Assembly (NCBI RefSeq): GCF_900092655.1
Contig: NZ_FLUY01001598.1
Span: 1 to 32,163, forward strand
Source: Candidatus Thiosymbion oneisti
GTDB lineage: Bacteria > Pseudomonadota > Gammaproteobacteria > Chromatiales > Chromatiaceae
Direction of reading: 5' to 3'
Length of the DNA stretch: 32,163 bases
Shown here: positions 341 to 32,163 of the stretch, one piece after another
How the letters are laid out: every line of letters begins with the position of its first letter
Numbering within the stretch: position 1 is the first letter of the stretch
Translations under genes and position numbers: made by a program
The notes under the pieces: model-generated
What the model saw: the letters and a program-made list of their open reading frames with translations, nothing else
The model's database searches: none
Told to the model about the DNA's origin: nothing

Positions 341-2863
341 ATGAGAATGAGTAACAAACTGGCATTAGGGAAAATTAAATCTGCGATAAAGGCTAGAGCT
401 GACAGGCTAGATTTGTCAAATATGAATCTTGAGGAATTGCCTGCTGATATTGGAGATATAACAACATTAACCGCACTAGATCTATCAAGTAACCGCCTAT
501 CTAAATTACCTGCTTCAATCGGCAACCTGAAGAATCTCAATCATCTTTGGCTCTATAATAATAATTTACGATTTTTACCGGCCGAGCTCAGCAATTTAGA
601 CAAGTTATCTACGTTTGCGATTGATAGAAACCCTCTTCCCGATTCTTTAATTACAACGGCCAAAAGAGGAACCCAGGATGCTCTTACATATTTGAAAAGT
701 TTGTATGGAGGGGCAGAAGAACTCTATGAAGCAAAATTAGTGCTAGTAGGCGAAGGCGCTGTTGGAAAGTCTTCTTTAGTATCTGCCTTGAAAGGTGAGC
801 GTTTTATAGAAAATAGGGCGACAACTCACGGAATTGAAATTACGTCCTTATCTGTTCCGTATCCTGCCTCACATAATAGAAACATCAATCTTAACGTGTG
901 GGACTTTGGCGGTCAGGCCGTATATAGGATCTCACATCAATTTTTTTATAGCAAACGTTCTTTGTATTTGCTTCTCTGGTCTCCGAGATTGGGAGTGGAA
1001 CAATGTGATGTATTAGGCTGGCTGAATAGAATAAAAATCAGAGTTGGATCGGATGCAAGCGTGTTAGTTGTTTCTACACATTGCAACACAGGAGGAAGAG
1101 TCGCAAGGATTGATAAAAGCCAAATTCTCGATGAATATGGGGATATTATACAAGGATTCTGTGAGGTTGATAGTAAAGATAATACAGGAATAAGAGAATT
1201 AAAGATAGAAATCGCTACTGCAGCAAGCCGACTTCCTCAAATGGGCGATCTGCTGAGCGAAAAATGGACGAATGCCAGAAACGATATATTAGGGTTGCTT
1301 GATCCATACATAAGTTTCGATAGGTTTGATTCTGTCTGCAGGAATCATAAAATCGAGCCTGATGCATCATTCGCATTGGCAATGTTAATGCATGATTTGG
1401 GGTATATTATTTATTATGGGGATGATGATGGATTAAAAAAGGAGGTTGTATTGCAGCCAGAGTGGCTAACTAAAGCTATAGGATACGTATTAGAAGACAG
1501 GAAAACGAATGAAGAATACGGTGTTCTCTTCCATTCTAGGCTAATTGATATTTGGGATAAGTCAGTATCTGCAGGCGGACAAAAATACCCTCCTGGATTG
1601 CATTCTTTCTTTTTGCGTTTAATGGAAAAATATGATGTTTCATATCGTCTTCCTGGCGAAAAGTCTAGTTTGGTTGCGCAACTGGTTCCCTCCGAAAAGC
1701 CAAATAATGCGACAACATCATTTTTAGTACTAGATCCAACAGATGCGGTAATCCATATTGTATGCGAAATGGAGAACTCCCCACCTGGACTTATACCTTG
1801 GCTAATTGTGAGAACCCATCAGTTTACTCCAACACCAAGGATGCACTGGGAAAAGGGGATGGCTCTACAATACCGTGAGCATGGTAGAGCCTTGATAGAA
1901 CTAAAGGGTGCTGACTTGCATATGATGATTGGAGGGCGTTGGCCTAATTATTATATGGGTCTCCTAAGACATATTTTAGAAAACCTAATAGGAGAACGTT
2001 GGCCAGGTTTAGAATATCGCTTATCTGTTCCGTGCCCTGTGTCGATGGCTGGCAAACAATGTAAAGGGAGGTTGCCACTAGAAACATTGCAGAATTTGAA
2101 GAGGAAAGGAACCGGAGAAGTACATTGCCTTTCATGCTCATCTTCGCTAAATATTGATAAGCTTCTTACCGGTTTTTCTCAGCCTCATATCAGGAACTTG
2201 GAATCACAGCTAATTCAGCTTGACGATCAACTTTCTAATTTATCGAGTGAGGTTGCTGGGTGGTTTGGCTCATTACTTAATGCTCTTAATCATGAGTCAA
2301 AGGAACATCCTAGGTTATGCACTATTACACCTAACATACCGAACAAAAAAGGAAAAGAGTTTACAAAACTATTAAGAAATGCGGCTGCAATCGAATATCG
2401 ACTGAATTTATGGTGTGAAATGCCAGGGTGCCAACATCCAATCTGCTCAATAGGGAGTGGCGGTGATGGAGAATATGAATTTTCCAAGCCGAAAGATTGG
2501 GTTGTGAAAATAGCCCCATACTTAAAGGTAATCATAAAAACATTAAAAGTTACAATTCCATTTTTGCAAATATCAGAATATTTGGATAAGGACAGCATGA
2601 AGAAAGCCAAGTCGAGTCTTGATTTATTAAATGAATTAACCGCTTCTTTTATTCCTGACGAAATTACTAGAGATGAAGACTCAACTAAGGTACTGACAAA
2701 ATTTGAAGGAGCAGCTCTACGAGAGCTTGGTACGCTTCTATTGGATTTAGATCCATCAAGAACATGGGGAAATATGCGGCGAACAATATTGCCAACTGGT
2801 GACTATATATGGGTTTGTGGCGCACACTATAGAGAACTAAATCCGGATCCACCAAAAATCTAA
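341..2863 (+). CDS. LRR-Roc-COR (Roco family) GTPase
   Basis: An 840-residue protein. A short leucine-rich repeat block of about three repeats lies at residues 22-100. A Ras-like Roc GTPase domain follows at about 130-300, with P-loop GEGAVGKSS (137-145) and switch motif WDFGGQ (187-192). The base-recognition motif is degenerate (THCN near 247 instead of NKxD). A COR-like region extends to about 560. The C-terminal third has paired cysteines around 565-600 (C-x8-C then C-x2-C), zinc-ribbon-like, another cysteine cluster near 692-702, and an aromatic end with WVCGAHYRE. Roco proteins are nucleotide-regulated dimers; the bacterial role is mostly unknown. ATG at 341 is used; ATG at 347 is equally possible, with a weak purine-rich AAGAAGAG 5'. 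The gene is AT-rich compared with the rest of the window. Its TAA lies inside the attC inverse core, so it looks like a cassette gene. Confidence 0.9.
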   Translation: MRMSNKLALGKIKSAIKARADRLDLSNMNLEELPADIGDITTLTALDLSSNRLSKLPASIGNLKNLNHLWLYNNNLRFLPAELSNLDKLSTFAIDRNPLPDSLITTAKRGTQDALTYLKSLYGGAEELYEAKLVLVGEGAVGKSSLVSALKGERFIENRATTHGIEITSLSVPYPASHNRNINLNVWDFGGQAVYRISHQFFYSKRSLYLLLWSPRLGVEQCDVLGWLNRIKIRVGSDASVLVVSTHCNTGGRVARIDKSQILDEYGDIIQGFCEVDSKDNTGIRELKIEIATAASRLPQMGDLLSEKWTNARNDILGLLDPYISFDRFDSVCRNHKIEPDASFALAMLMHDLGYIIYYGDDDGLKKEVVLQPEWLTKAIGYVLEDRKTNEEYGVLFHSRLIDIWDKSVSAGGQKYPPGLHSFFLRLMEKYDVSYRLPGEKSSLVAQLVPSEKPNNATTSFLVLDPTDAVIHIVCEMENSPPGLIPWLIVRTHQFTPTPRMHWEKGMALQYREHGRALIELKGADLHMMIGGRWPNYYMGLLRHILENLIGERWPGLEYRLSVPCPVSMAGKQCKGRLPLETLQNLKRKGTGEVHCLSCSSSLNIDKLLTGFSQPHIRNLESQLIQLDDQLSNLSSEVAGWFGSLLNALNHESKEHPRLCTITPNIPNKKGKEFTKLLRNAAAIEYRLNLWCEMPGCQHPICSIGSGGDGEYEFSKPKDWVVKIAPYLKVIIKTLKVTIPFLQISEYLDKDSMKKAKSSLDLLNELTASFIPDEITRDEDSTKVLTKFEGAALRELGTLLLDLDPSRTWGNMRRTILPTGDYIWVCGAHYRELNPDPPKI

Positions 2864-22930: not shown

Positions 22931-24490
22931 TCAACTCCGCTCCGTGGTTGCTGCGGACTCGGCGCTGGTCCGAGGTGGCGTGAGATCCGAGTCCAAGCGG
23001 TCGCCGGAGGGGTTGGTGAAGCGGTCGTTGAGCGTCTGTACGTAGAGATCGGCGTCCTGCCTCACCTTGCGCAGGCGGCGCCTGGCGCGTGTATTCCAAC
23101 CGACCGGCGTGCGCGCGAAGATGGTTCGCCACCAACAGGTGTTACGTGTGAAGGCACGGGCCAGGTTACTATACAGGCCCTCCTCCGCGGCTCGGGCGGT
23201 CAATGAGCGGGCGACGGATTTCGCGGCCAGGGAGCGGATCCCGAAATGGGCCGCTACGAACAGGACGAAGGCCACAATAATCAGGGTCGGGATCACCCAG
23301 GAGGTATCCATGGCACTCTGGAGTGCGGCCAGTCCGTCGCCCCGGAAGATCCAAGCCAGCAAGGCGATCAGGGCCAGACCCAGGACGATTCCGTCGCCCC
23401 ACAGGGTGCGTCTGCGCCAACGGTCGATTGCCCGCTGGAGAAAGGGTACGGTGCGTTCTTCGATGTCCTTGGCGGTCCTGTCCACGGCGCTGACGATGCG
23501 GTAGGCCCGCTCGACTTCCACCTTCTGCATGCGCCTGTGGATCTCCTTCAGGTCTTGGTCCCGCTTCTCCTCATACCGGGCGCGCTTGGCCGCGTCCTCG
23601 ATGAAGATAGCGGCGTCCGGGTTGTAGATGGTGTAGAAACGCCCGGCGGTCAGGCCCTCCTCACCGATAGCCCGCTGCCAGGCGGCGATTACATCTTCGG
23701 GGTTGTCCTCCCGCGCCGTGGTATCGAGTTGATTGAGGATGTACAGGAACTTGCCGGCGTCCGGCCGTTTGATGGTATCGGCGACCAGATGTTTCAAGGT
23801 ATCGCGCATGGCCCCCGGCTCCGGGTGGCGGGCATCGAAGAACACCAGTACCAGATCGGACAGGCCGATGATGTGATCGGTGATACGCAGCGTCGCCGTG
23901 CGCTGGGCGTCGGCATCGAAGCCCGGCGAGTCGATGAGGATCCTGCCCCGCAGCCGTTCGCTGGAGTTGGCCTTGAGCTGCAGGTAGGTGTCGATGCGTT
24001 CGCCTTCGCCTTCGGACACCAGCTCGATATCCTTAGAGATCTGATAGAGGGGGAAACGCGGGTCCGAATCGAGGGCAACCCCCGGCAAGGCGTGGTCCGT
24101 CGACTCGCGACTGTAGCAAATGACGGTGAAACGGTCGTCTACCGCCTGGTTGCCCGTTCGCTGCAGCTTGCTGCCGAGGAAGTGGTTGACGAAGGTGGAT
24201 TTGCCGGCGGAGAAGGTTCCGAGCACCGAGATCAGGGGCCACCATGGGATTTGGGTGGCGTAGGATTGGTCCTTCTCGAGGAGACCCATGCCATAGGCAA
24301 CCCGATCCAGGGTGCGAAAGCTCTGAACCGTACCGAGCAGCACCGGGTTTTCCTGCTCCAGATGGGCCTCCAGATTCTTCAGTCGTTGCTCGACGGCGTT
24401 TGTGGAAGGATACATCGCATGGTTCCTCATGGCTTCGAAGCGCGGTCGGGAATCGGGGAAGAGGTTCGGATCCGGTCGACCCTCTATCAT
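22931..24490 (-). CDS. Dynamin-like membrane GTPase
   Basis: A 519-residue GTPase of the dynamin superfamily. It has P-loop GTFSAGKST (91-99), switch-II motif DSPGF (187-191) and base recognition NQLD (253-256). A helical region with YEEKRDQDLKEIHRRMQKVEVERAYRIV follows, then two membrane helices at about 366-383 and 398-416, and a basic region (RRRLRKVRQD) before a polar tail. Such proteins bind and reshape membranes in a GTP-dependent way; bacterial members act in membrane repair, vesicle handling or defence. ATG 24490 is taken; ATG at residue 21 is possible. Bacterial dynamins often come in adjacent pairs, but here there is one alone. Confidence 0.88.
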   Translation of the reverse strand: MIEGRPDPNLFPDSRPRFEAMRNHAMYPSTNAVEQRLKNLEAHLEQENPVLLGTVQSFRTLDRVAYGMGLLEKDQSYATQIPWWPLISVLGTFSAGKSTFVNHFLGSKLQRTGNQAVDDRFTVICYSRESTDHALPGVALDSDPRFPLYQISKDIELVSEGEGERIDTYLQLKANSSERLRGRILIDSPGFDADAQRTATLRITDHIIGLSDLVLVFFDARHPEPGAMRDTLKHLVADTIKRPDAGKFLYILNQLDTTAREDNPEDVIAAWQRAIGEEGLTAGRFYTIYNPDAAIFIEDAAKRARYEEKRDQDLKEIHRRMQKVEVERAYRIVSAVDRTAKDIEERTVPFLQRAIDRWRRRTLWGDGIVLGLALIALLAWIFRGDGLAALQSAMDTSWVIPTLIIVAFVLFVAAHFGIRSLAAKSVARSLTARAAEEGLYSNLARAFTRNTCWWRTIFARTPVGWNTRARRRLRKVRQDADLYVQTLNDRFTNPSGDRLDSDLTPPRTSAESAATTERS

Positions 24491-24773: not shown

Positions 24774-25940
24774 ATGGGATTAGCGATGGTTCGCGGATTG
24801 CTGGTGGTGAGTTTGGCGTTGGCGGCACAGGCCGTTGCGGCGGTGCCTCCGGGCGGCGAGTTCGTGGTGAAGCAGGCCGAGGGGGCCCCTACCGTCTCGG
24901 TAGGCGGGACCGTGATCCCATATAAGGAGGTAACCTTCGCCGCCCAGCTGCCGGGACGGGTCAAATACCTTGCCGGTATCGAAGGCGATGCCTTCAAGAA
25001 GAGCGACCTGCTCGTCTCCCTCGACGACCGTGAGCTGCTCGCCAACCGCCAGGCCCTGCTGGCCCGGATGCAAAGCGCCGATGCCGCGCTGCGCAACGCC
25101 GGCATGCAGTACAACCGTGAGATCTTCGCGCCGCGCTCCCGCACCCCCCCGGGCGGCATGGGCATCCCGAACCTGTTCGACCAGATGTTCACCCGACCCA
25201 TGGAGGATTTCATGGGGGAACGCTCTCGGGGCGCGGAATTGTCCGCGGATCTTTACTCCTCCGGTACCCAGGTCGAGCAGGCACGCAGCACCCTCATGCG
25301 GTTGCAGGCGGAGCTGCAGGCGTTGGATTCCAAGTTGCGCGATGCCCGCAGCATCGCACCCTTCGACGGTGTCATCGTCAAGAAATTCATCGAGGTCGGC
25401 GATACGGTGCAGCCCGGTCAACCGCTGCTCAATTACGCCGATGTCCAGTACCTACAGGTCGAGGTGGACGTTCCGGCGCGGCTGCGGCCAGGTCTGCGCG
25501 AGGGCCTTATGATCCACGCCGAGCTCGATGTGAACCACCGGCGGGTACCGGCCCGGGTGGCCCAGATTTTCCCCATGGCCGATCCCCAGCGGCATACGGT
25601 CAAGGTCAAGCTCGACCTGCCCCAGGGCGTGTCCGAGCCGGGGATGTACGCCAAGGTGCTGGTGCCGGATTTCCAGGCCCCCATGCGCGCCAACCCGGTC
25701 ATCCCCGAGTCGGCGATCCGCTACAACGGCAGCCTGCCGGGGGTCTATGTGCTCGATGAGCAGGACCATGCCGAGTTGCGCCTCATCCGGGTCGGGGAGC
25801 CGCTTCCGGACGGCTTGATCACCGTGCTCAGCGGTCTGCGCCCGGACGAGCGGATCCTGGCGGACCCGCCGCCGGGGGTCGCCGCCGGTTGGTCCACCCA
25901 GCAACAACGGCAGCCTGAAGATGGGCATATTGAACGATGA
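24774..25940 (+). CDS. RND efflux periplasmic adaptor (membrane fusion protein)
   Basis: A 388-residue adaptor with an N-terminal signal peptide (MVRGLLVVSLALAAQAVAA; ATG 24774 or 24786). The barrel-hybrid starts VGGTVIPYKEVTFAAQLPGRVKYLAGIEGDAFKKSDLLVSLDDRELLANRQAL, a lipoyl-like half. The hairpin (about 85-180) contains an unusual glycine/proline/methionine-rich stretch, RTPPGGMGIPNLFDQMFTRPMEDFMG. The second lipoyl half is IAPFDGVIVKKFIEVGDTVQPGQPLLNYAD. A beta-barrel domain and PESAIRYNGSLPGVYVLDEQ complete the fold. It links the pump at 25937 to an outer-membrane channel, which is not encoded here. It overlaps the pump gene (ATGA). Confidence 0.92.
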   Translation: MGLAMVRGLLVVSLALAAQAVAAVPPGGEFVVKQAEGAPTVSVGGTVIPYKEVTFAAQLPGRVKYLAGIEGDAFKKSDLLVSLDDRELLANRQALLARMQSADAALRNAGMQYNREIFAPRSRTPPGGMGIPNLFDQMFTRPMEDFMGERSRGAELSADLYSSGTQVEQARSTLMRLQAELQALDSKLRDARSIAPFDGVIVKKFIEVGDTVQPGQPLLNYADVQYLQVEVDVPARLRPGLREGLMIHAELDVNHRRVPARVAQIFPMADPQRHTVKVKLDLPQGVSEPGMYAKVLVPDFQAPMRANPVIPESAIRYNGSLPGVYVLDEQDHAELRLIRVGEPLPDGLITVLSGLRPDERILADPPPGVAAGWSTQQQRQPEDGHIER

Positions 25941-28900
25941 ATGAAGACCAGACCCTGACGAGTCCCGAGGGTCGGAAACCCAAGTACACGGATGAACACC
26001 TCGGCATCGCCGGGCGCACGGCGCGATTCTTCATCCGCTCCCCCCTGTCGCCTCTGTTCTTTGTCGCGATGCTCCTGATGGGCCTGCTCGGTCTGGTGAT
26101 GACGCCCCGCCAAGAGGATCCCCAGATCTCGGTGCCCATGATCGACATCATGGTGCAGTATACAGGGGCCTCCGCCCAGCAAGTGTCGAACCTGGCGATG
26201 CAGCCGCTCGAGCGCATCATGAGCGAGATTCCAGGGGTCAAGCACGTCTACTCGGCATCCCAACGCAATAGAGGATTGGTCACCGTCGAGTTCGAGGTGG
26301 GGGAGCGGATGGGTCCGTCGTTGGTGAAGGTGAACGACAAGCTCGCCTCCAACATGGACAAGATCCCACCGGGGGTCATGCCGCCCTTGGTCAAGACCAA
26401 GGGCATCGACGACGTACCCATCGTCACCCTTACCTTGTGGTCGAAGGATCTGGACCAGGACGGCCAGCCGGATGTAGACGACGGGCAGCTGCGCCTCCTC
26501 GCCCAGGACGTGCTCCAAGCGGTCAAGGAGGTCAAGGACACGGGCAACGCCTTTATCGTGGGCGGCCGCCGCGAGCAGGTGACGGTGGACGTCTACCCCG
26601 AGCGCCTGTCCGGCTACGGCATCAGCCTGGATCAGGTTGCCCAGACCCTCAAGACCGCCAATGCCGAGACCATGGCCGGCGGGGTGGAGTCGAGCGGCGC
26701 CCATTTTTCGGTGACCACCGGCTCCTTCCTCAAGAGCGCCGACGAGATCAATCGGCTGGTGGTGGGGACCCACCAGAATGTTCCCATCTATGTGCGCGAT
26801 GTGGCGCGGGTCGTCCAGGGTCCGGAGGACGCCAAGCAACTGGTAGCCTACTACACGGGGCCGGCCGCACCGGAAGACCTGAAGGCCAATGGAGTGCCCG
26901 CGGTCACCCTTGCCATCGCCAAGAAGGAGCTGACCAACGGGGTCACCGTCGCCAACGCCATTATCGAGCGCGTGGAGCAGATCAAGGGCGAGCGGATCCC
27001 CAACAATGTGGCGGTCAGTATCACCCGCAACTATGGGGAGACCGCGGACGATAAGGTCTCGGACCTGATCAAGAAGCTGTTCATCGCCACCTTTTTCGTC
27101 TTCCTGTTGGTCTGGGGGGCGTTCCGGGCCTTGCGGCCGGCCATCGTGGTGCTGCTGGTCATCCCGGTGGTCCTGCTCATGACCATCTTTACCGCCTGGG
27201 TCTGGGAGTACACCATCGACCGGGTGAGCCTGTTCGCCCTCATCTTCTCCATCGGCATCCTGGTGGATGATGCCATCGTGGTGATCGAGAACATCTACCG
27301 GCGCTGGCTGGAGGAGGGGCGCACCGACGACGAGACCGCGGTGGACGCGGTGCGCGAGGTAGGTAACCCCACCATTCTCGCCACCTTTACCGTCATCGCC
27401 GCGCTGCTGCCCATGGGCTTCGTGAGCGGCATGATGGGGCCCTACATGGAGCCGATCCCGGCCCTGGGCTCGGTGGCAATGTTTATCTCCCTGTTCGCCG
27501 CCTTCGTATTCACCCCCTACTTTGCGTTGTCCAAGTGGCTGCGGCCCTCCATGCGCTACCTGGAGACGGCGGAAAGACGTGAGCATAAGGGAGCGGAAAG
27601 GCTCGAGAAGGGCTTCCGCAAGGTCCTGACCCCCCTCATCGAGCGCAAGGGCAAGCGGACCCTTTTCCGCCTCGTCCTCTGGGGTATCTTCCTCTTCACC
27701 TGCGCCTTCTTCTACTTCAAGTGGGTCCCGGTGAAGATGTTGCCCCTGGACAACAAGCCGGAGTTCTCGGTCGTGATCGACATGCCGGAAGGCACGGCCT
27801 TGCCGGTCACCGCCAACCTCGCGCACCGCATGGCGGAAGCGCTGCGTACCCTGCCGGAGGTGACGGCCATCCAGCTCTACGCGGGCACAGCACGGCCCTT
27901 CGATTTCAACGGCATGGTGCGCCACTATTACATGCGGTCCGACCCCTGGCAGGGCGAGCTCCAGGTGCAGCTCCTGCACAAGAACGACCGCGAGCGGAGC
28001 AGTCACGAGCTGGCGGTCACGGCCCGAGAGATGCTGGCGGAGCTGGCCGAGGAGGCCGGTGCCAATATCGCCGTCGTCGAGATGCCGCCGGGGCCGCCGG
28101 TATTACAGTCGGTGGTGGCAGAGATCCATGGTCCGACACCGGAGATCCGCCGCCAGTTCGCGCGTGATATGACCGAGTTCTTCGCCCAGGCCGAGAGTGC
28201 CCGCGACGTCGACAACTACCTGCGCGATACCTACGACTATTGGCGCTTCGACGTGGATACCGAAAAGGCAGTACGCCGCGGCATCTCCGTCGATACCATC
28301 AATCGCAACCTGGCCATGGCCTTGGGCGGGGCACCGATCGGGGACGTCAAGCAGAAGGCGGGTCACGAACCCATCGAGATCGTCGTGCAGGTCCCGTTGG
28401 CGGAGCGTTCCCAGATCGAACGCCTGGGCGATCTGCCGATCCAGTCCAGTGGCGGATTCACCATTCCACTGCGGGAGCTCGGGGCCTTCCAGCGGGTACC
28501 CGAGGAGGCCATCATCTACCGCAAGGACCTGCGTGCGGTCGAATTCGTGGTTGCCGACGTGGGCGGTACCCTGGCCGCGCCCGTCTATGCCATGTTCCAG
28601 ATCCGGGACGCGATGGATACCGCCGGTTATGTGGCACCGGATGGCTCGGTCCCACAGGCCTACTGGATCGGTCCCCCCCCCAACGACCGGTATTCGGCCT
28701 GGGAGTGGAGCGGCGAGTGGACGGTCACCTACGAGACCTTCCGCGACATGGGCGCCGCCTTCATGGTCGCGCTGGTGCTCATCTACATCCTGGTGGTTTG
28801 GGAGTTCGGCAACTTCCGGATCCCCCTGGTGATCATGGCGCCCATTCCCCTGACCCTGTTAGGGATCATCCCGGCCCACCTGATCATGTTCAAGCTGGGA

Positions 28901-30127
28901 CTGGGTGGTGAATTCACCGCGACCTCGATGATCGGCTGGATCGCCCTGGCCGGCATCATCGTGCGTAACTCGATCCTGCTCGTGGACTTCTCGATCCACG
29001 AGGTACAGAAGGGGGTGCCCGTGGCCGAGGCCGTCATCCGGGCCTGTAAGACCCGGACCCGCCCCATCGTGATCACCGCCCTGGCCCTGGTGGCGGGTTC
29101 CAGCGTCATCTTTACCGACCCCATCTTCCAGGGCATGGCGATCTCGCTGGCCTCTGGCGTATTGGTCTCGACCCTGCTCACGCTCATTGTGATCCCCTTG
29201 GGCTGCGTTGCCGCCAGCAAGGACCTGTGCGAGGTGGCGGCAGCAACCGCACCGGCCGGCACAAGCGTGCCTTGCGCAACGGCAGAGGCCGAGGAGGAAC
29301 CGAAGATCGAGAAGGAACCCAAGCAGAAGGAGCCCCGGACCGGCATCCTGACCAAGGTCTGGGGCTACCTGGTGGAAGGGATCATCCTAGGCTTCTACCT
29401 GATCCGCGGGCTCTTTCTGTTGTTGTACGATTTTCTGAAGGGCTGGGTGAAAAAGAAATGGCCCACGCCCAAGCCACCGGCCCCGCCAGCCGTGCCGGGC
29501 GCAGGTGGGGGGGGCCTGTCAGGTGGTTCCGGTACTTCCCCGACCGTTTCGGTTTCGGGATCCGGTAGCGCGCCGGTACCGCCGCCGTCGGACAGTGCCG
29601 CGGCGAGGACCGAGCACCCATCGAGCACGCCTGAGGAGACAGCCTCAGTGCCGCAGACCGAGGAGACGGATACACCAGCCGCACGGGAAGAGGCAACCGG
29701 TGTTGAGTCGCGGAAGGATACCCTGACCGTCGGACAGGAGTCACGGCAAGGCACGCCGGAGGTTCAGACGGCGCAGGCCGGTACCTCAAGCGCACCCCAA
29801 GCGGCCGGCGGGGCGACACCGGCGACTGATGCAAAACCGATGGCAGTGACGGACGCGGCTTCCGATGCAGCGGAGGAAATGGTCTCAAAACCGCAAACCG
29901 ATCCAGCCGTGACGGCGGAACAGGATGCATCGGCGGCGCAGAGAGAGGCAACCGGCAAAGAGGCCGCCGACGATACCCGCAAGGAGCGGGTTGCTACGGA
30001 GAAACCAGTGGCAAAGAAGACCACGGTCAAGCCGAAAACGGTAAAGCCGGCGTCGATCCAGAAAAAGCCCAGGCGGCGTGGCATACGCCTTAAAGCGGAT
30101 GATGGCCAGGGACCGAGCTTTGACTGA
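25937..30127 (+). CDS. RND efflux pump with long C-terminal extension
   Basis: A 1396-residue inner-membrane transporter. Residues 1-1095 are a complete AcrB-type pump (twelve membrane helices, two large periplasmic loops). Helix 4 reads SIGILVDDAIVVIENIYRRW with the proton-relay DD at about 440. The second half repeats this with LAGIIVRNSILLVDFSIHEV, where the DD is replaced as is normal. The pump starts with MTPRQEDPQISVPMIDIMVQYTGASAQQV, typical of a broad family whose substrates are mostly unknown. After about 1095 an extension follows: a charged linker, one added hydrophobic helix (VEGIILGFYLIRGLFLLLYDFL, about 1146-1167), then about 225 residues rich in A, T, E, P, S and K, ending KKPRRRGIRLKADDGQGPSFD. 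Ordinary RND pumps end near residue 1050. Confidence 0.95.
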   Translation: MNEDQTLTSPEGRKPKYTDEHLGIAGRTARFFIRSPLSPLFFVAMLLMGLLGLVMTPRQEDPQISVPMIDIMVQYTGASAQQVSNLAMQPLERIMSEIPGVKHVYSASQRNRGLVTVEFEVGERMGPSLVKVNDKLASNMDKIPPGVMPPLVKTKGIDDVPIVTLTLWSKDLDQDGQPDVDDGQLRLLAQDVLQAVKEVKDTGNAFIVGGRREQVTVDVYPERLSGYGISLDQVAQTLKTANAETMAGGVESSGAHFSVTTGSFLKSADEINRLVVGTHQNVPIYVRDVARVVQGPEDAKQLVAYYTGPAAPEDLKANGVPAVTLAIAKKELTNGVTVANAIIERVEQIKGERIPNNVAVSITRNYGETADDKVSDLIKKLFIATFFVFLLVWGAFRALRPAIVVLLVIPVVLLMTIFTAWVWEYTIDRVSLFALIFSIGILVDDAIVVIENIYRRWLEEGRTDDETAVDAVREVGNPTILATFTVIAALLPMGFVSGMMGPYMEPIPALGSVAMFISLFAAFVFTPYFALSKWLRPSMRYLETAERREHKGAERLEKGFRKVLTPLIERKGKRTLFRLVLWGIFLFTCAFFYFKWVPVKMLPLDNKPEFSVVIDMPEGTALPVTANLAHRMAEALRTLPEVTAIQLYAGTARPFDFNGMVRHYYMRSDPWQGELQVQLLHKNDRERSSHELAVTAREMLAELAEEAGANIAVVEMPPGPPVLQSVVAEIHGPTPEIRRQFARDMTEFFAQAESARDVDNYLRDTYDYWRFDVDTEKAVRRGISVDTINRNLAMALGGAPIGDVKQKAGHEPIEIVVQVPLAERSQIERLGDLPIQSSGGFTIPLRELGAFQRVPEEAIIYRKDLRAVEFVVADVGGTLAAPVYAMFQIRDAMDTAGYVAPDGSVPQAYWIGPPPNDRYSAWEWSGEWTVTYETFRDMGAAFMVALVLIYILVVWEFGNFRIPLVIMAPIPLTLLGIIPAHLIMFKLGLGGEFTATSMIGWIALAGIIVRNSILLVDFSIHEVQKGVPVAEAVIRACKTRTRPIVITALALVAGSSVIFTDPIFQGMAISLASGVLVSTLLTLIVIPLGCVAASKDLCEVAAATAPAGTSVPCATAEAEEEPKIEKEPKQKEPRTGILTKVWGYLVEGIILGFYLIRGLFLLLYDFLKGWVKKKWPTPKPPAPPAVPGAGGGGLSGGSGTSPTVSVSGSGSAPVPPPSDSAAARTEHPSSTPEETASVPQTEETDTPAAREEATGVESRKDTLTVGQESRQGTPEVQTAQAGTSSAPQAAGGATPATDAKPMAVTDAASDAAEEMVSKPQTDPAVTAEQDASAAQREATGKEAADDTRKERVATEKPVAKKTTVKPKTVKPASIQKKPRRRGIRLKADDGQGPSFD

Positions 30128-30225
30128 TATCAGGGCCTTGATTCGTTCTGCACGGTGACCAGTGCTGCCCTACCAATGGTGCCAAATCGACGCCTTCCAA
30201 CCCGATGAACAGGGGTGAAACCGAG

Positions 30226-31050
30226 ATGAAGATTGCGATACTGACGATTTGGCGCTCGCTGGCCGTCGGGCTGCTGGCGGCGGCTTCCGGCGCGGTGCTC
30301 GCCGGCACCCAGTTCTCCGCCGAGGTGTCCCAGCAGGGGCCCCAAGGAAAGCTATCCGCCGGCAAGTTGTTCGTGGGCGACAAGCGGACGCGCACCGAGC
30401 TGTCCCAGCAGGGACAACAGATTATCCAGATAACCGATGAAGGTCGCGGTGTCGAATGGATGCTGTTTCCGGACCGGAAAAAGTACATGGAGCGACCGCT
30501 GGGCGGATCGGGAGGTGCAATACCGGGTACGCGCTCGATTCAGGCCAAGGATCCCTGTAGTGGTATGCCGGGACTGACCTGCCGGCAGCTCGGGGAGGAG
30601 AAGATCAACGGGCGCATGGCCGTTAAATGGGAGATGGTCGCTTCCGCCTCCCATTCGGAACAGCCCATGAAGAGCACCCAGTGGATCGATAAGGAGCGGG
30701 GTGTTCCCCTGCGTCAGGAGATGTCCGACGGGCAAACTACGGAACTCAAATTCGTTGCCACGGAAAAACTGAACGGGCGCCAAGCCGAGAAATGGGAGCT
30801 GGTCGCGACCATGCCCGGTCGGCCGGAGATGCGCACCTTCCAGTGGTTCGATCCCGCGCTCGAGCTCACCGTGCGTCAGGAGCTCCCCGGCGGTATGGTC
30901 AGCGAGCTGAAGAACATCCGCGTCGGCAAGCAACCCGACGACCTGTTCGAGATTCCTACCGGTTATGAACGTATAACCATGCCTCCGGGTGGACCAGGTG
31001 GACCGGGAGTGCCGCCGGCCGGGCCAGAGGGCGGAGCGATTAAACCCTGA
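30226..31050 (+). CDS. Exported protein with internal domain duplication (DUF4412/LolA-like)
   Basis: A 274-residue protein with a signal peptide (MKIAILTIWRSLAVGLLAAASGAVLAG). ATG 30226 is preferred over 30205 because AGGGG (30211-30215) precedes it and the signal peptide then starts cleanly. The mature part begins FSAEVSQQGPQGKLSAGKLFVGDKRTRTELSQQGQQIIQITD, a strand-rich pattern like DUF4412 or LolA-fold proteins. Two tandem copies of about 54 residues follow (30595-30756 and 30760-30921): KINGRMAVKWEMV...TQWIDKERGVPLRQEM and KLNGRQAEKWELV...FQWFDPALELTVRQEL. The C-terminus is glycine/proline-rich. It lies 98 bases after the RND gene on the same strand and may be co-transcribed. Its function is unknown. 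Confidence 0.8.
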   Translation: MKIAILTIWRSLAVGLLAAASGAVLAGTQFSAEVSQQGPQGKLSAGKLFVGDKRTRTELSQQGQQIIQITDEGRGVEWMLFPDRKKYMERPLGGSGGAIPGTRSIQAKDPCSGMPGLTCRQLGEEKINGRMAVKWEMVASASHSEQPMKSTQWIDKERGVPLRQEMSDGQTTELKFVATEKLNGRQAEKWELVATMPGRPEMRTFQWFDPALELTVRQELPGGMVSELKNIRVGKQPDDLFEIPTGYERITMPPGGPGGPGVPPAGPEGGAIKP

Positions 31051-31372: not shown

Positions 31373-32163
31373 ATGACCGCTCCCCGCTCCGTTCTCGTCT
31401 CCCTTGAAGACACCCCCTGGTATCACTGTGTATGCCGCTGTGTACGTCGTGCCTTCTTGTGTGGTGAGGATCGGTTCTCGGGTCAGAACTTCGACCACCG
31501 CCGCGGTTGGATCGTCGAGCGCATCCAGCAGCTTGCCACCCTGTTTGCCATCGATGTGGCCGCCTATGCGGTGATGAGTAACCACTACCACATCGTGGTG
31601 CGCATCGACCGGGGACGGGCCTTGGATTGGTCGATGGAGGAGGTATTGAGGCGTTGGACAGCGCTCTTCACCGGACCTTTGTTGGTAACCCGGTATCTCT
31701 CAGAATCACGAGGGTCGATGAGCCAGGCGGAAATTGCCAAGGTTGGAGAGCTTGCCGCGGTCTATCGGGAACGGTTGCATGATTTGTCCTGGTTCATGCG
31801 CACTCTCAACGAGCACATCGCCCGTCGGGCTAATGCGGAGGATGGGGTGAAGGGGCGGTTTTGGGAGGGTCGCTTCAAGAGCCAGGCGTTGCTCGATGAG
31901 AAGGCGCTGCTGGCGGCGATGGCCTATGTGGATCTGAATCCGGTCCGGGCAGGACTGGCCGAGACGCCGGAGACCTCGGACTATACCTCGATTCAGGAAC
32001 GCGTCGTCGGCTTGCCGGAGGAGACTGGATCCGAAACCGGCTCGCGGGAGACTGCAACCGTTAAAGATCCTGACACAGTACTCGACGGGGAGCGGTTACG
32101 ACCGGAGGCCGAGACGCAAATCTTGCCCCAAGCCCCGCTGATGCCCTTTGATGCCACTGCACG
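31373..32163 (+). CDS. REP-associated tyrosine transposase (RAYT), runs off the window
   Basis: At least 263 residues, open to the window edge. It starts MTAPRSVLVSLEDTPWYHCVCRCVRRAFLCG and has the Y1-transposase HUH motif NHYHIVV (residues about 70-76), with the downstream helix region LSWFMRTLNEHIARRANAEDGVKGRFWEGRFKSQALLDEKALLAAMAYVDLNPVRAGLAE. These single-strand DNA transposases of the IS200-related group are thought to spread REP hairpins. A broken copy of its C-terminal part lies at 15466-15600. After about residue 210 the tail is variable and acidic. Confidence 0.93.
   Translation, partial: MTAPRSVLVSLEDTPWYHCVCRCVRRAFLCGEDRFSGQNFDHRRGWIVERIQQLATLFAIDVAAYAVMSNHYHIVVRIDRGRALDWSMEEVLRRWTALFTGPLLVTRYLSESRGSMSQAEIAKVGELAAVYRERLHDLSWFMRTLNEHIARRANAEDGVKGRFWEGRFKSQALLDEKALLAAMAYVDLNPVRAGLAETPETSDYTSIQERVVGLPEETGSETGSRETATVKDPDTVLDGERLRPEAETQILPQAPLMPFDATA

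Follow-up and report, generated by a model that had tools for sequence, protein, structure and literature searches.

ATPases of the ParA/MinD type act on cargos as different as DNA, carboxysomes, flagella, chemotaxis arrays, and the divisome, as listed in the available portion of PMC10241942. ParB binds ParA through a motif in its unstructured N-terminus that combines aliphatic and basic residues and is enough for stimulation (PMC12462528, available excerpt), and the available parts of two further articles treat the same binding mode as general to the partner proteins of ParA/MinD ATPases (PMC10241942; PMC12204374). The first of these also describes many ParA/MinD ATPases as 'orphans' whose partner is not known (PMC10241942, same portion). 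An RND exporter is absent as a cargo from that portion, in which the term RND occurs 0 times. Likewise, our search of the literature on RND exporters together with ParA, dynamin, SGP, the cell pole, or a C-terminal extension, with subscription journals mostly outside its scope, found no such system.

Here we describe an RND pump from the window, by which we mean the whole 32,163-nucleotide stretch of Candidatus Thiosymbion oneisti DNA that was analysed. We propose, with a probability of about 0.6 and from comparative sequence evidence, that its C-terminal extension serves as a tether in the cytoplasm, with an RRGIRLK tip that docks on the ParA/ParF-like ATPase of the same gene cluster and thereby positions the pump.

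An HAE1-type RND permease with a C-terminal extension

The pump gene (25937..30127, + strand) is an uninterrupted ORF that starts with ATG and encodes 1396 amino acids, of which residues 30-1088 match Pfam ACR_tran (489 bits, E 2.7e-146). Foldseek searches with an AlphaFold2 model of residues 1-1185, which is of moderate quality (47-row alignment, mean pLDDT 70, pTM 0.59), returned OqxB, CmeB, AcrD, BpeF, and AcrB as best PDB matches at TMq ≈0.6. Fifteen NCBIfam models match the pump, every one under its curated cut-off, and we therefore regard it as an unnamed branch of the HAE1 permeases. Proton-driven export of a substrate by this pump is putative. Its periplasmic adaptor, a membrane fusion protein, is encoded just upstream at 24774..25940 (+ strand; NCBIfam TIGR01730, 150.6 bits, cut-off 94.9).

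The preliminary description placed the normal end of the pump at about residue 1095, in agreement with the end of the ACR_tran match and with the final pump helix of the model (residues 1065-1092). Each of the elements that it listed beyond this point, namely a charged linker, one added hydrophobic helix, and an A/T/E/P/S/K-rich tail of about 225 residues with a very basic end, is present. The linker (residues 1091-1136; 29207..29344, + strand) is variable and partly charged, and its residues 1119-1136 are of low confidence in the AlphaFold2 model. It leads into the extra hydrophobic helix (residues 1137-1171; 29345..29449, + strand; consensus FYxxRGIFLLL), in which Arg1157 is nearly invariant. 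Structure prediction, which had been suggested as a check, yielded one continuous extra helix at exactly these residues (block pLDDT ≈68-79). The low-complexity tail that follows occupies residues 1172-1396 (225 residues). It consists of a disordered tether of variable length, rich in A/P/S/T/E/K (residues 1172-1379; 29450..30073, + strand), the motif RRGIRLK (residues 1380-1386; 30074..30094, + strand), which we propose as a putative ParA-ATPase-binding peptide, and the terminal residues; the very basic end reads KKPRRRGIRLKADD.

Homologues were drawn from a GTDB genome scan (the best 80 loci of 247 relatives) and from a search of 55 related genomes. Duplicates, homologues without a terminal stop, and one further motif-bearing locus (L026) were left out, giving a set of 86 distinct ORFs ending in a stop codon, with that of the window counted in. 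The extension is present in frame in all 86 of these distinct complete homologues from independent genomes and extends 139-405 amino acids (median 250) past residue 1084; an adaptor-like gene is present at 83 of the 86 loci. The named carriers are Chromatiaceae (Halochromatium, Thiocapsa, Allochromatium, Thiocystis, Marichromatium, and others), Sedimenticola, Candidatus Thiodiazotropha, and related gammaproteobacteria. The preliminary description knew of no standard RND pump built in this way, which fits our literature search; within this clade, however, such pumps are common.

RRGIRLK as the most conserved part of the extension

The pattern RRGI[RQ][LV][KR] occurs in 85 of the 86 homologues, 0-21 residues from the C-terminus, and the protein ends exactly with the motif in 21 of these 85. 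A survey of homologues for the tail and its conserved end, also suggested beforehand, thus bore out both. Exact RRGIRLK is found in 77/86 tails, compared to 13/86 for the next unrelated 7-mer, and none of 86,000 tails shuffled with their composition preserved contained the motif. At the DNA level, the motif pattern occurs in the genome of the window once in the forward and 0 times in the reverse direction, and 0 times in reversed-pattern controls. As judged from these homologues, conservation within the extension peaks in these seven residues near its end and not in the helix. A second shared stretch of the linker, KRPSTLKKQ, was seen in tails of Thiodiazotropha (for example L075, L078, and L089), and its 7-mers are found in up to 13/86 tails.

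The gene cluster around the pump

A dynamin-like GTPase (22931..24490, - strand; Pfam Dynamin_N) is the divergent neighbor of the pump. On the other side, a LolA-like periplasmic protein is encoded at 30205..31050 (+ strand; Pfam LolA_like, 22.3 bits, under the cut-off of 30); genes of this type are present at 36 of the 86 loci, not all of which have room for one, and also in the clusters of other families. The stretch ends at 32163 within an ORF resembling REP-associated transposases (window 31373-32161; NCBIfam NF047646, 50.8 bits, below the cut-off of 80), and the pump cluster breaks off before the ATPase gene. This gene lies on another contig of the same genome (C477:1680-2303), adjoining a DUF948-like fragment, and in a genome of the same genus (G003, locus L040) the distance from the pump to the downstream ATPase gene is 4.7 kb. 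Elsewhere in the window (341-2863), we noted a bacterial ROCO-type protein of 840 amino acids with leucine-rich repeats and Roc GTPase, COR-A, and COR-B domains.

A fuller form of the cluster is found in about 20 other gammaproteobacterial families, although not every gene is present in every genome, and in the sample as a whole the cluster occurs in more than 20 families of gammaproteobacteria. The fuller cluster comprises the adaptor, the tailed RND pump, secreted proteins rich in Gly/Tyr/Pro/Trp/Asn/Gln (some matching Pfam SGP), LolA-like proteins, a ParA/MipZ-like ATPase, a TPR protein, a DUF302 protein, a DUF948-like coiled-coil membrane protein, and the dynamin-like GTPase. Three Gly/Tyr-rich secreted proteins reach the SGP (PF17228) cut-off of 26.7 bits: L194:10269-10706 (56.2 bits), L211:11431-11844 (34.4 bits), and L192:9758-10351 (26.7 bits, equal to the cut-off); a loose residue pattern marks one further likely case in L153. 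SGP-like proteins are known from the clusters of other families, and none was seen in the window. A link to sulfur metabolism through the SGP-like proteins was set aside as context only, the Pfam cut-off being passed in 3 clusters. The RND genes in the available part of a transcriptome study of a purple sulfur bacterium (PMC11267869) are not shown there to correspond to this pump.

Association of the motif with a ParA/ParF-like ATPase

The ATPase of the cluster is short (about 210 amino acids) and forms a clean ortholog family, with HMM scores of at least 199 bits compared to at most 134 bits for background copies (134 bits in G025, ≈100 bits in G169, and 109 bits for a second copy in G149). 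A second copy in G014 (260 bits) lies away from any tailed pump. In the sequence KGG[ST]GKST, residues K9, G10, G11, G13, K14, S15, and T16 are invariant in 15 sequences; we take this to be a deviant Walker A motif with the signature lysine. The nearest relatives of the ATPase with a solved structure, ParF (4dzz; 206 amino acids) and ParA (5u1g; 214 amino acids), match the profile over nearly its full length.

Downstream sequence of 5 kb or more was available for 56 tailed loci, and 55 of them carry the ATPase gene on the same strand, 0.5-4.7 kb downstream of the pump and scoring above 295 HMM bits. The exception is L056 (Thiospirillum jenense), where the ATPase is on another contig; we take L056 to be the same species as genome G022 because their pump ORFs match. 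By contrast, the ATPase was found in 0 of 17 neighborhoods of close RND paralogues (54-63% identical; 1/17 cut at a contig end), none of which has an intact motif.

The same association was seen between genomes. A set of 80 genomes was chosen to take in all pump- or dynamin-positive ones then known, and five in which a contig end cuts the pump tail (G008, G020, G027, G028, and G042) were set aside; 3 of these 5 have the ATPase. TRGIRLK (G130) and RKGIRLK (G164) were scored as the motif, and the ATPase of G017 was counted from a 71-residue fragment. The ATPase is present in 46/48 genomes with the motif compared to 1/27 without it. The latter group comprises two genomes that have the pump but with its tip lost or degenerate (0/2; G113 and G011) and 25 without the pump (1/25), of which nine are dynamin-positive (1/9; G075) and 16 have neither (0/16). 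In the two motif genomes without an ATPase match, G021 (via L062, which matches L018) and G121 (via L205), the contigs end ≈2.0 and ≈0.7 kb after the pump, respectively. Fisher tests that ignore phylogeny and cluster linkage gave p ≈1e-16 for all genomes and ≈1e-10 for one genome per family (21/22 vs 1/24). Because the motif and the ATPase share one cluster, part of this correlation reflects shared cluster ancestry.

In an even sample of the class, the ATPase is present in 25 of 143 genomes. Two genomes found by their ATPase alone, G156 and G165, served as a prediction test, and both (2/2) carry a tailed pump ending in RRGIRLK on the same contig as the ATPase. Conversely, G135 (two pumps) and G142 have pumps at E = 0 that lack the motif, and have no ATPase. 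A hand tally of the 139 nameable genomes among the 143 gave 23 with both, one with the ATPase only (G075), one with the motif only (G121), and 113 in which neither was found, with G042 outside these classes. The search for stand-alone carriers of the motif covered 27 genomes, so other motif carriers that are not RND pumps may be missed.

Several single genomes are informative. The complete, one-contig genome G113 keeps the adaptor, pump, SGP-like, LolA-like, TPR, DUF948, and dynamin genes, but its pump ends 36 residues past the pump body; the tail is lost, and no ATPase was found at E 1e-15. In G011, the tail ends in a degenerate RKSVRIK and the ATPase match is at background level only, a case that weighs less because the cluster of this genome has undergone other reductions as well. 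G075 has the ATPase, a pump pseudogene, and no motif that we could find; at L184:3952-4953 of this genome, fragments of RND and adaptor genes lie beside the dynamin-like gene in a decaying copy of the cluster. In G089, the motif is not in frame with the pump match and lies 440 bp downstream of it, and in G107 the tailed-pump gene is split across two contigs.

G149 has no tailed pump. Instead, it encodes a stand-alone motif protein, P0002 (L181:9367-10416, 349 amino acids), with two N-terminal hydrophobic segments, a long disordered tail, and an RRGIRLK end, beside Gly/Tyr-rich and LolA-like genes. Occurrence of the tail as a separate gene had been named as an observation that would speak against a pump with a genuine tail; it was found in this one genome, where the separate module supports modularity of the tail, and we do not read it as a refutation. 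The ATPases of G149 and G117 form a shared diverged subfamily (215 and 199 bits, respectively) and are encoded outside the cluster. Two second pumps of one family have other ends: that of G117 (L277:7516-11310) has the tail end RRGIRADKKPTK, an apparently degenerate motif, RRGIRADKK, on a paralogous pump, and that of G095 (L276:5418-9164) has KRISGIGPKIEAMLNELGI in its C-terminal extension in place of the motif, a stretch that resembles a helix-hairpin-helix.

Among the features compared, the best correlate of the motif is the ParA/ParF-like ATPase. The extension, its conserved tip, and the ATPase family, as well as the co-inheritance and co-loss of tip and ATPase, are established at the level of sequence.

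Alternative explanations

Another cluster member could be the one that binds the tip, for instance the dynamin-like GTPase, the TPR protein, or the DUF948-like protein; the ATPase would then be only a co-inherited neighbor. The dynamin-like gene is indeed upstream of and divergent from the pump in 48 of 54 loci with room for it by script (49 when L055 is corrected by eye), and among the 55 relatives all 33 dynamin-positive genomes fall within the 34 that have the pump. However, G113 retains the dynamin, TPR, and DUF948 genes though its tail is lost, and G076, like G156 and G165, has the motif and the ATPase without a dynamin ortholog; on these four genomes, the dynamin-like GTPase was demoted as main partner. 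Moreover, with E = 0 as the criterion, a tailed pump is missing from 10 of the 33 dynamin-positive genomes of the class, and in the dynamin-enriched sample of one genome per family, dynamin is present in 21/22 genomes with the motif and still in 10/24 without it, unlike the ATPase with its single occurrence among the latter. We consider binding to another cluster protein unlikely.

Alternatively, the K/R-rich tail might bind nucleoid DNA, RNA, or acidic lipids nonspecifically, as an electrostatic tether anchored by RRGIRLK. Lysine makes up 12% of the tail linker, and many tails contain KKAAAKK or KKTATKK runs, which in our view resemble histone H1. Yet a nonspecific anchor would require neither a near-invariant 7-mer at a fixed place nor one that tracks a single ATPase family, and K-poor tails such as that of L157 retain the motif, which makes such a tether distinctly improbable.

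The working part of the extension could also be the extra helix, acting in cis on the membrane domain of the pump as an AcrZ-like modulator, with the tail as a by-product. The FYxxRGIFLLL helix is conserved in the Chromatiaceae set, and AcrZ is a separate small protein bound to the membrane part of AcrB (PMC7267776, available portion). However, among 19 distinct motif-bearing pumps from other families (21 rows, two pumps having been fetched twice), 7 have no segment with a Kyte-Doolittle 19-mer hydropathy of at least 1.6 and retain the motif; in four of these (L142, L143, L280, and L283), the extension does not exceed 1.13 and the motif is intact. The helix is less constant than the motif and, across the families compared, dispensable where the tip is not. 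We therefore rejected the helix as the main conserved element, and the modulator explanation is very unlikely. Finally, fusion of two genes by an assembly error or frameshift, against which the preliminary description had cautioned, is refuted by the in-frame extension in all 86 homologues and has negligible probability.

Topology and proposed mechanism

Docking of the tip on the ATPase would require that the tail be cytoplasmic. The preliminary description supposed that the added helix changes the number of membrane passes, and the helix is hydrophobic enough for a membrane span (Kyte-Doolittle 19-mer of at least 1.6) in 85 of the 86 homologues. A simply membrane-spanning helix, which is compatible with this hydropathy, would place the tail in the periplasm and out of reach of the ATPase. 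Departure of the tail from the cytoplasm nevertheless appears improbable, given the charged residue within the helix in 81/86 homologues, the families that lack the helix, and the flanks of the helix, of which the C-terminal one is more positive than the N-terminal one in 70/86 homologues and less positive in 6. By the positive-inside rule, the more positive C-terminal flank does not point to a shift of the tail to the periplasm. In L142, L143, L280, and L283, which have no extra segment, the usual 12-helix topology would leave the tip in the cytoplasm, and we infer the same location for the remaining tailed pumps.

In the mechanism that we propose for docking on the ATPase, the hydrophobic helix would begin the tether, either embedded in the membrane or lying in its inner leaflet, and the disordered linker of variable length would supply reach. 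The RRGIRLK tip would then act as a short linear motif that docks on the dedicated, cluster-encoded ATPase and would stimulate ATP hydrolysis, as the peptides of ParB, ParG, or McdB do. As a result, the adaptor-RND pump complex would be positioned, clustered, or segregated in the cell; this complex perhaps also includes the LolA-like proteins and the secreted Gly/Tyr/Pro-rich proteins that the cluster encodes. The cytoplasmic tail, direct binding, ATPase stimulation, and positioning are what we infer from the genomic pattern. The preliminary suggestion that the tail may recruit a partner gains support, and a candidate, the ParA/ParF-like ATPase, from comparative genomics, with the binding itself putative.

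At a broader level, the cluster may represent an undescribed gammaproteobacterial envelope-export system, in which the RND exporter is the cargo of a ParA/ParF-like ATPase through the RRGIRLK tether, alongside a dynamin-like GTPase, LolA-like carriers, and secreted Gly/Tyr-rich (partly SGP-like) proteins; together they would place a specific export machine within the cell or distribute it there. We see about even odds for this wider view. If true, an RND exporter and one ATPase family are paired by a short motif recognizable in sequence, the cell can organize tripartite pumps in space, an uncharacterized gene cluster of more than 20 gammaproteobacterial families is tied together, and a known class of ATPase-partner systems gains a new type of cargo.

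Comparison with known systems

The pump shares its ACR_tran domain, its fold, and an adjoining membrane-fusion adaptor with the HAE1 RND permeases AcrB, OqxB, CmeB, and AcrD. Unlike them, it carries a C-terminal extension of about 300 residues with a conserved tip and is encoded in a cluster with ParA-, dynamin-, and LolA-like genes, and unlike the named HAE1 subfamilies it falls under the curated cut-offs of all the NCBIfam RND models that it matches. As in AcrB-AcrZ, an extra hydrophobic helix is added to an RND pump, but in the tailed pumps the helix belongs to the same chain, in cis, and across families it can be dispensed with, whereas the tip cannot. Pfam SGP (PF17228) is matched by some of the Gly/Tyr-rich cluster proteins, in the clusters of other families. 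ParF of plasmid TP228 (4dzz) and ParA (5u1g) are the nearest solved relatives of the cluster ATPase, yet at 54 bits only.

The tail itself resembles ParB, ParG, McdB, and MinE, which have an unstructured terminus, a short motif of aliphatic and basic residues, and their own ParA-type ATPase encoded nearby. Given the composition of the tip, its position at a disordered end, and an ATPase of its own that is kin to ParF and ParA, we take the pump to be a probable membrane-bound partner, or cargo, of this ATPase. Unlike the partners of ParA/MinD ATPases, the pump tail has no DNA-binding or microcompartment part, and unlike the known partner peptides, which are N-terminal, its motif is C-terminal and sits on an integral-membrane exporter. 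Because of this difference in position, we propose that the tip works like the ParB, ParG, and McdB peptides, and not that the pump belongs to their families.
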